Assembly: GCA_947311515.1 (NCBI GenBank)
Contig: CAMZLB010000036.1
Location: forward strand, 1-40,476
Direction of reading: 5' to 3'
Source: Candidatus Moraniibacteriota bacterium
Lineage (GTDB): Bacteria > Patescibacteriota > Minisyncoccia > Moranbacterales > GCA-2747515
Length of the DNA stretch: 40,476 bases
Part shown: piece after piece, positions 14,272 through 16,952 of the stretch
Layout: every line of letters begins with the position of its first letter
How positions within the stretch are numbered: position 1 is the stretch's first letter
Notes under the pieces: model-generated
Databases searched by the model: none
What the model saw: the letters and a program-made list of their open reading frames with translations, nothing else
What the model was told of the DNA's origin: nothing
Made by a program: the position numbers and the translations under genes

Positions 14272-14727
14272 ATGGTACGTATTGTTACACAAGAAGGATT
14301 AGATAAAATCAAATTTGAATTAGAGGAAAGAATAAATAGTACTAGGAAAACTATAGCAAAGGCTATAAAAGAAGCAAAAGAACAGGGGGATTTAAGTGAA
14401 AATGCTGAATACTCAACTGCAAAGGGAGAGCAAGCAGAAAATGAACAAAGAATCGCTGAATTAGAAGGTCTTTTAAAGGAGACAAAGGTTGTTGAACATG
14501 ATAATAATGATTCAAGTATTCAAATTGGTGATAGAATAACAGTAAAAGCACAAGGTAAGGAATTAGATTTTGAAATAGTTGGATCCAATGAAGCAGATCC
14601 TTCTAGTAATAAAATTTCAAATGAATCACCTATAGGAAGCGCACTTTTGGGATCTGTTGTAAATGATAGTGTTGATGTCAATACGCCAGTAGGTGTTGTT
14701 AGTTATAAAATTATTTCTATAAACTAA
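14272..14727 (+). CDS. greA: Transcription elongation factor GreA
   Basis: The protein has 151 residues, close to the family's usual 158. The N-terminal coiled coil carries the hallmark GDLSENAEY, whose acidic residues reach into the RNA polymerase channel. The C-terminal FKBP-like domain has the hallmark SNEADPSSNKISNESPIG. GreA helps stalled, backtracked RNA polymerase cleave its transcript and resume. The gene has its own -10 box and possibly a second, distal promoter. It is followed after 89 bases by lysS, which has its own -10 box. Confidence 0.97.
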   Translation: MVRIVTQEGLDKIKFELEERINSTRKTIAKAIKEAKEQGDLSENAEYSTAKGEQAENEQRIAELEGLLKETKVVEHDNNDSSIQIGDRITVKAQGKELDFEIVGSNEADPSSNKISNESPIGSALLGSVVNDSVDVNTPVGVVSYKIISIN

Positions 14728-14816: not shown

Positions 14817-16952
14817 ATGAATAATAAAGTACAAAATAGTTTTCGGAGTGAGTATGAAGAAAGAGTGAAAAAAGTAGATCGTTTATTAAAAGATGGTATA
14901 GAAGCATACCCCTCTAAGTCACATAGAACTCATAAAATTAAGGAAGTACTTTTTCAGTTTAACTCTTTACAAGAAAAAGAGGAGGTCATTACTGTAGTTG
15001 GACGCATAAGATCAAAGAGAGTGCATGGAAATCTTACCTTTGTTGATTTAGAAGATGCTTCAGGACGTTTTCAGATTGCGATAAATAAAAAAGAACTTTT
15101 AAAAAGTGAAACGTATAAAAAATTTGAAAATTTTATAGATACAGGGGATTTTGTGGAATTCATTGGTAAAGTATTTATAACAAAATCGGGTCAGAAAACG
15201 TTACTAACTAGAGAATGGATTTTAGCTTCAAAAGCTCTTCGAAGTATGCCAACTGATCACTTTGGATTAATAGACGAGGATGAAAGATTTAGAAAGAGGT
15301 ATGTAGATTTGATGTTAAATGAGGACTTGAGGAAATTATTTATCAGAAGATCGAAATTTTGGCGTGTTATACGTGAATTTATGGAGGAAAAAGATTTTTT
15401 AGAAGTAGAAACACCAACTATTGAAACGACTACGGGAGGAGCTGAGGCAAGACCATTTGCTACCTATCACAATGATTTTGACTTGAATGTTTATATGAGA
15501 ATCTGTATTGGTGAGCTGTGGCAAAAGAGACTTATGGCTTCGGGATTTGAAAAAACTTTTGAAATTGGAAGAGCATATAGAAATGAAGGATCGAGTCCGA
15601 ATCATATGCAAGAATTTACAAATATGGAGTTTTATTGGGCATACGCAAACTATGAAGATGGTATGAAATTTACGCAAGAGTTATATAGATTCATAGCAGA
15701 AAAAGTGTATAAAAAGACAAAATTTAAGGCTCGTGGACATGTGTTTGACTTAGCTGATGATTGGAAAAAAATTGATTATGTAAAGGAAATTGATAAACAA
15801 ACTGGTATAAATGTTATATCTGCTTCAGAGGAAGAAATGGTTGAAAAATTAAAAAAATTAGATATAAGATATGATGGGGCTAATAAGGAGAGATATGTAG
15901 ATAGCTTATGGAAGTATTGTCGAGCAAATATAGCGGGACCTGCATTTTTGATAGGTCATCCGTCATTTACTTCACCGCTCTCTAAAAAGATGAAAGATTC
16001 ACCAGGGCAAGTTGAAAGATTTCAGATAATACTTGCAGGAGCAGAGATTGGAAATGGTTATAGTGAATTAAATGATCCAATTGATCAAAGAGAGAGATTT
16101 AAAAAGCAGCAAAAATTATTGGAAGCAGGTGATGAGGAGGCTATGATGCCTGATTGGGAATTTGTTGAAATGTTGGAATATGGCATGCCTCCTACATGTG
16201 GATTCGGAGTTGGAGAGAGATTATTTGCCTTTTTTGAAAACAAAACTTTAAGAGAAGTGACGTTATTTCCATTTATGAAACCTAAGGAGAGTAAAAGTGT
16301 CTGTGTTGTTGCTAAAAATAGTGATGAGATAAATGAAAAAAGTGAATTTTCAGAAGATGAGAAATTATTAGTTAGCTTGAGGCAGGCAAATAAATTAGTA
16401 GATAAATGGATTTTTAATCCTATAACTAAATTACACTCTCAGGAAAGTGAGATTATAATGAGAGGACTTGCGAGACATTTTAATAAAGATGAAGAGGAAA
16501 TTGAAAAATGGGGAATATTAGGGTTATTGCATGATTTAGATTGGGATATAACAAAAGATAATCCAGCTAGTCATTCGCTTAAAACTGAAGAAATTTTGAA
16601 AGAATTTGGGGCTAGTGAATTTTTAATTGAAACCATAAAATCACACAACTATGGTTACAAGCTTTCGGAAGAATTGAAAGATAAAAAGCGTTCAACGAGA
16701 ATTCAGCACGCATTAGCATCTTCGGAAACTTTAACAGGACTTATAATTGCCTCCGCGCTTGTCTTACCATCAAAAATGGTTAAAGATTTAAAGTTAGAAT
16801 CTCTAAAGAAAAAGTTTAAGAATAAAAAATTTGCACAAAATTGTGATAGAGATATAATCAGGGAGTGTGAAAAAATTGGATTATCAGTTGATGAGTTTTT
16901 GGAAATTGGATTGATTTCATTACAGGAAGCATCTGAAAAATTAAAGATATAA
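14817..16952 (+). CDS. lysS: Lysyl-tRNA synthetase (class II) fused to a C-terminal HD domain
   Basis: The protein has 711 residues against about 500 for normal class II LysRS. An OB-fold anticodon-binding domain (about 55-160) precedes the catalytic core (about 175-480). Motif 2 contains GRAYRNEGSSPNHMQEFT, and motif 3 is GFGVGERLF near 461, keeping the conserved Arg. GNGYSELNDP is also typical of LysRS. After FPFMKP comes about 220 extra residues with an HD phosphohydrolase fold: H near 540 (KLHSQES), the HD pair in GLLHDLDWD near 573, H in ASHSLKT and H in IKSHN. This matches small HD-domain hydrolases. The enzyme charges tRNA-Lys. LysRS is also known as a source of Ap4A, and the HD protein YqeK breaks Ap4A down, so a coupled nucleotide-signalling role is possible; this is inference. 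It heads an operon with the next two genes. Confidence 0.95.
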   Translation: MNNKVQNSFRSEYEERVKKVDRLLKDGIEAYPSKSHRTHKIKEVLFQFNSLQEKEEVITVVGRIRSKRVHGNLTFVDLEDASGRFQIAINKKELLKSETYKKFENFIDTGDFVEFIGKVFITKSGQKTLLTREWILASKALRSMPTDHFGLIDEDERFRKRYVDLMLNEDLRKLFIRRSKFWRVIREFMEEKDFLEVETPTIETTTGGAEARPFATYHNDFDLNVYMRICIGELWQKRLMASGFEKTFEIGRAYRNEGSSPNHMQEFTNMEFYWAYANYEDGMKFTQELYRFIAEKVYKKTKFKARGHVFDLADDWKKIDYVKEIDKQTGINVISASEEEMVEKLKKLDIRYDGANKERYVDSLWKYCRANIAGPAFLIGHPSFTSPLSKKMKDSPGQVERFQIILAGAEIGNGYSELNDPIDQRERFKKQQKLLEAGDEEAMMPDWEFVEMLEYGMPPTCGFGVGERLFAFFENKTLREVTLFPFMKPKESKSVCVVAKNSDEINEKSEFSEDEKLLVSLRQANKLVDKWIFNPITKLHSQESEIIMRGLARHFNKDEEEIEKWGILGLLHDLDWDITKDNPASHSLKTEEILKEFGASEFLIETIKSHNYGYKLSEELKDKKRSTRIQHALASSETLTGLIIASALVLPSKMVKDLKLESLKKKFKNKKFAQNCDRDIIRECEKIGLSVDEFLEIGLISLQEASEKLKI

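Follow-up and report, generated by a model that had tools for sequence, protein, structure and literature searches.

A class II lysyl-tRNA synthetase with a C-terminal extension

What is a hydrolase-type domain doing at the end of an enzyme that charges tRNA with lysine, and do the two parts belong together at all? The question is raised by a gene in the window (the whole stretch of 40,476 nucleotides that we analysed, which is contig C36 of its genome), where a lysS-HD fusion gene at 14817..16952, on the + strand like all features given below, starts with ATG and codes for 711 amino acids plus stop in one open reading frame free of internal stops.

Residues 8-490 (14838..16286) make up a complete class II lysyl-tRNA synthetase (LysRS), as a sequence-only reading of this DNA had proposed. 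Two profiles that cover about residues 11-490 score above their curated cut-offs (NF001756, 503.6 against 468 bits; TIGR00499, 456.9 against 427.6), and both PF01336 (OB-fold anticodon domain) and PF00152 (class II core) are matched. The part comprises an OB fold (58-134), a catalytic core (153-487), motif 2 (RNEGSSPNHMQEF) and motif 3 (GMPPTCGFGVGER), whose arginine is kept although the motif is one residue short, and in the predicted full-length model it has the canonical fold and matches LysRS structures. The shortened motif 3, which reads GFGVGER (16200-16220, residues 462-468) as against GxGxGIDR, is common to many relatives, fused and unfused alike. The protein is the sole LysRS detected in the 1.2 Mb genome of this ultra-small bacterium of Patescibacteria (CPR) type: a genome search turned up neither another class II LysRS nor one of class I, and the one other weak match, 626 residues long, has the size of an AspRS. 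We take this N-terminal part to be the cell's normal class II LysRS. LysX likewise holds a LysRS within a two-activity protein, but its extra domain, a lysylphosphatidylglycerol synthase, is N-terminal and unrelated to HD. A LysX-like identity was rejected, since NF002821 matches the LysRS part alone and scores 413.5, below its cut-off of 742; with this model no N-terminal lysylphosphatidylglycerol synthase domain was detected in the 711-residue protein.

An assembly artefact or a chance read-through is ruled out by comparison with G287, a second genome from the genus, which carries the same LysRS-HD fusion at 78% identity. Between the two genomes, dN/dS is 0.10 for the LysRS part, 0.10 for the HD domain (residues 521-711) and 1.28 for the 30 residues of the linker (491-520). 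Both domains are thus under equal purifying selection, and the linker evolves without constraint. Chance is no explanation either, since 25 genomes out of 287 from the phylum have the fusion, and the LysRS-HD fusion is confirmed as real. The full-length model, built with 19 fused homologues (pLDDT 84.8), consists of LysRS, a disordered linker and HD; because the linker (residues 489-514; 16281..16358) lies below pLDDT 50, the HD domain would be tethered rather than docked in a fixed pose, within the limits of a monomer model.

The HD domain and its relationship to YqeK

The extension proper, residues 515-711 (16359..16949), is an all-helical domain of a YqeK-like family. Pfam HD (PF01966) is matched at residues 540-617 with a score of 27.9 against a gathering score of 22, and an AlphaFold2 model of this part (35 homologues) is all-helical with pLDDT 97 and pTM 0.92, so that the HD pattern noticed at the C-terminus by the sequence-only reading is borne out by both profile and predicted fold. 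The ligand positions given there (H near 540, HD near 573, further H) proved right to within one or two residues. The predicted metal ligands are His540 (16434..16436), invariant wherever aligned and paired with the first YqeK His; the HD doublet His572-Asp573 (16530..16535), invariant in all 171 HD sequences; His586 (16572..16574), His in 168 of 171, and the invariant His610 (16644..16646; 171 sequences), each of which pairs with a second-metal His of YqeK; and Glu637 (16725..16727), Asp or Glu in 171/171, mostly Asp, which pairs with a YqeK Asp. The H..HD..D ligands of the superfamily are accordingly present across the 171 homologues, the last as D or E, and the six-ligand pattern H..HD..H..H..D is kept with rare exceptions at His586. 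A review treats this six-residue signature, which YqeK shares, as diagnostic of a dinuclear site (PMC8177086). A true HD-superfamily domain with an intact predicted dinuclear-metal ligand set is therefore supported by the sequence data.

Which HD proteins are its closest relatives depends on whether fold or sequence is compared. Foldseek searches with the HD model return HD domains as top matches (probability 0.9-1.0, E 0.04 or weaker), led by those of GlyRS beta subunits (E 0.04, probability 1.00, TM about 0.48) and followed by PgpH, HD-GYP and YqeK; small alarmone hydrolases are also among the fold neighbours. The bacterial GlyRS beta subunit likewise has an HD fold inside an aminoacyl-tRNA synthetase, but its HD domain is without the catalytic HD doublet (PMC8464048) that is intact in LysRS-HD. 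Descent from a GlyRS-beta HD domain, hinted at by Foldseek, is unsupported by profile comparison (hhalign 0.3%). A single-sequence search of the PDB with the HD part gave chance matches only. When PDB sequences were searched with a profile of the family, five YqeK-type chains led (8jja, E 2e-6; 2ogi, 8wmy, 2o08 and 3ccg) and no other match fell below E 0.9. In addition, hhalign of the family against two CPR YqeK sequences gave 97% with all six ligands aligned. These comparisons support YqeK Ap4A hydrolases as the nearest relatives of solved structure, at the level of sequence profiles.

The fold neighbours could also be taken to mean that a second-messenger hydrolase, acting on (p)ppGpp or a cyclic dinucleotide, has been placed on LysRS and couples signalling to lysine charging, as the PgpH HD domain (c-di-AMP) and the small alarmone hydrolases are among them. 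The closest sequence kin is YqeK, however, the search of PDB sequences gave no SpoT or PgpH at E<=1, and among the matches listed the HD members outside CPR have no common signalling context; we consider this explanation improbable.

The sequence-only reading had linked the extension to YqeK, and the kinship holds, whereas membership does not. Like YqeK (COG1713, a symmetrical Ap4A hydrolase; SpYqeK 8WMY, B. halodurans 2O08), the domain combines an HD fold with H..HD..H..H..D(E) ligands, and it has significant profile similarity to YqeK, but the YqeK equivalog model TIGR00488 has no match at E<=1 to either the full protein or the HD part, and where YqeK has HDxxK, the family keeps an invariant HDxD (Asp575) and no conserved Lys. 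In S. pyogenes YqeK this lysine (Lys62) is important for Ap4A cleavage (PMC11857287). YqeK membership is ruled out on both counts. Further differences are the spacing from HD to the third His, 13 residues here and 32 in YqeK, a conserved C-terminal block (F672, R678) that is extra relative to YqeK in the LysRS-linked family, and the partner enzyme, LysRS here as against NadD for fused YqeK. We take the family to be COG2316. YqeK itself is scarce in the phylum: a search for it left 3 of 192 over cut-off, and TIGR00488 gave no match in the window's own genome.

Recurrent pairing of LysRS and HD across Patescibacteria

As to how common the extension described by the sequence-only reading is among CPR LysRSs, fusions are present in 25 of 287 CPR genomes, representing 14 families. 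An HD probe matched 121 of the 287 genomes, the last dozen or so being weak matches in RNase Y-sized frames. Separate HD genes number 86, and 34 of them lie directly 3' of a LysRS gene, 25 behind class II lysS and 9 behind class I LysRS; 7 more are within 15 kb of LysRS, 28 are elsewhere and 17 have no listed LysRS coordinates. For six genes upstream of HD the class I identity was confirmed (TIGR00467 over cut-off). Records labelled Patescibacteria with lysS-HD adjacency or fusion include L141, L149, L175 and L198.

We placed 90 HD domains on a tree, for which SH-aLRT is the only measure of branch support. The fused state requires 12 changes on it, at least five of them forced by well-supported branches, with gain and loss not distinguishable from the counts. 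The same LysRS-HD pairing appears to have arisen several times across the phylum, with at least 5 changes of state. The HD domains behind class I LysRS in family f78 are nested in a clade of class II-fused HDs (support 99). Family f56 likewise has one HD behind class I LysRS that is nested in a class II-adjacent clade (support 99); the HD domain therefore stays while the LysRS class switches. Its recurrence, and its persistence with an unrelated class of LysRS, suggest a hydrolase that checks the products of LysRS or clears them up.

Class swaps with HD kept can be seen within single CPR families (L226, L227 and L228 against L034-L040), and likewise in L088 against L066, L092, L234, L235 and L237.

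Does the pairing amount to anything beyond gene order? In the window, a greA-like gene (14272..14727) is the upstream neighbour of LysRS, and a homologue is found upstream of LysRS at 38 of the 72 class II loci and at 5 of the 13 class I loci. SerRS lies within 1500 bases 3' of HD in 32 CPR loci. Because this greA-LysRS-HD-serS block is common and conserved in CPR, bare adjacency could be inherited gene order. The fusion might then be neutral, a lost stop codon having joined two genes that go on working independently: neighbouring genes in the block often overlap or sit a few bases apart, and the linker is the unconstrained part of the protein. We think this unlikely, however. The fused state has changed repeatedly on the tree, the nearest unfused HD genes (L229, from the same family, and L051) do not adjoin LysRS, so loss of a stop codon is not an obvious route, and alternative hydrolase or editing domains are found in the same position on other LysRSs, one of which (L044) has B3/4 between LysRS and HD. 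Since fusion recurs and other modules occupy the same C-terminal position, more than inherited order is indicated.

In one CPR genome, the gene next to a separate HD gene (L070:5575-8070) codes for a TIGR00375-type protein split by a probable intein.

Other C-terminal modules on CPR LysRS

DUF2000 is found at the LysRS C-terminus in several CPR families (L103, L106-L110, L230 and L231), L230 and L231 being from the window's own family. B3/4, the editing domain of PheRS beta, is C-terminal on class II LysRS in L105, L091, L044 and L048 and on class I LysRS in L090, L242, L243 and L244. A 1002-residue LysRS (L110:1453-4458) has DUF2000 together with an AlaRS/AlaX-like SAD segment (PF01411 tail, PF07973). 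Forms with DUF2000, B3/4 or an AlaX-like segment are the majority of the other extended LysRSs scanned in the phylum. Combined forms are LysRS-HD-DUF2000 (L042), LysRS-B3/4-HD (L044) and LysRS-HD-B3/4-DUF2000 (L048). Compared with solved structures, DUF2000 has one good match, Atu0240 (2gax, E 6.8e-7), a protein of unknown function. The LysRS of L104 has an N-terminal extension alone, in which no Pfam domain is matched.

The editing-type modules point toward tRNA rather than nucleotides, and the HD domain could accordingly act on tRNA(Lys) itself, as a tethered deacylase or a tRNA-end repair module comparable to trans-editing domains. Pairing with two unrelated LysRS classes, whose sole common ground is lysine and tRNA(Lys), would suit such a role, as would the B3/4, AlaRS/AlaX-type SAD or DUF2000 modules on other CPR LysRSs and the lead of GlyRS beta in the Foldseek search, given that GlyRS beta-subunit HD domains are implicated in acceptor-arm binding (PMC8464048). 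On the other side, sequence kinship is with YqeK and not with GlyRS beta, the Foldseek E-values are weak at a modest TM, and L048 unites HD, B3/4 and DUF2000 in one chain, which means that a common substrate is not needed. Moreover, we know of no HD protein that is an aminoacyl-tRNA deacylase. Action on tRNA(Lys) is on balance doubtful.

A still wider proposal, which we put forward as speculation well below even odds, is that in Patescibacteria LysRS of either class is a hub to which hydrolases for quality control (HD, DUF2000, B3/4, AlaX-like) are tethered. The HD family would then be an unrecognised metal-dependent enzyme with lysyl-tRNA or by-products specific to LysRS as its substrate, and would represent a new form of synthetase proofreading.

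A possible role in by-product clean-up

The reading that we prefer, tentatively and at somewhat less than even confidence, is that of a bifunctional LysRS whose tethered YqeK-related HD hydrolase removes by-products that arise when lysine is activated or charged onto tRNA; catalysis, metal, substrate and purpose are what we infer. The class II LysRS part would charge tRNA with lysine, the flexible linker would hold an active, probably dinuclear-metal HD hydrolase on it, and this hydrolase would cleave the phosphoanhydride of an adenylylated by-product, for instance Ap4A or another Ap4N, which is the most likely chemistry because the domain is homologous to YqeK. LysRS is the classic maker of Ap4A (PMC10148737), and dinucleotides of the Ap4A type are the first, though unproven, candidates as substrate of the HD domain. 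In favour of clean-up are the location of the fusion in the genome's only LysRS, the intact ligands, the constraint on the domain, the recurrence of the pairing, its occurrence with either class and the scarcity of YqeK in the phylum. A parallel is offered by the NadD-YqeK fusion of mycoplasmas, in which an HD hydrolase is likewise tethered to an enzyme that transfers nucleotidyl groups and where the HD domain is proposed to remove faulty NadD products, making it a product-repair fusion (PMC9426524). It concerns another synthetase and another HD family, however, and the clean-up role of LysRS-HD is read from sequence.

A narrow Ap4A role fits less well. Counting against it are the missing YqeK lysine, the pairing with class I LysRS, the editing-type modules in the same position and eight Nudix matches in the genome, given which Ap4A removal need not depend on the HD domain. 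To our knowledge class I LysRS is not a notable Ap4A maker, and the HD pairing thus would not require class II chemistry. The sequence-only reading had offered two purposes, a dinucleotide signal made and broken in one chain or the removal of a side product; as HD pairs with class I LysRS too and shares its position with editing modules, the second fits better and the first less. A defence protein was considered and dropped, with no PADLOC match.

We found no reports of the LysRS-HD fusion, COG2316, DUF2000 or CPR LysRS fusions among the open-licence papers searched. Synthetases with an appended hydrolase are already known; what is new is an intact HD hydrolase on LysRS, in a pairing that recurs and involves either LysRS class. 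LysRS is, as far as we know, generally described as having no appended editing domain. A hydrolase that is fused to LysRS repeatedly and is kept through exchange of the LysRS class offers genetic evidence from which to approach what a widespread, uncharacterised HD family does, and it opens a direct test between on-the-spot clean-up of synthetase by-products (e.g. Ap4A) and hidden proofreading in lysine charging.

The HD family outside CPR

Among the matches listed, the HD family is widespread, occurring in Clostridia, Deltaproteobacteria, KSB1, Cloacimonadota, archaea and others. In these same matches no link to LysRS was seen outside CPR, which speaks against the clean-up reading, and no neighbour is shared, those observed being RNase R, Na+-pyrophosphatase, DNA polymerase I and transporters. 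In one clostridial locus (L133) the gene immediately downstream of HD is an RNase R gene of confirmed identity, and in six others from Clostridia (L127, L135, L136, L165, L171 and L174) the gene in this place is RNase R-like by size only.
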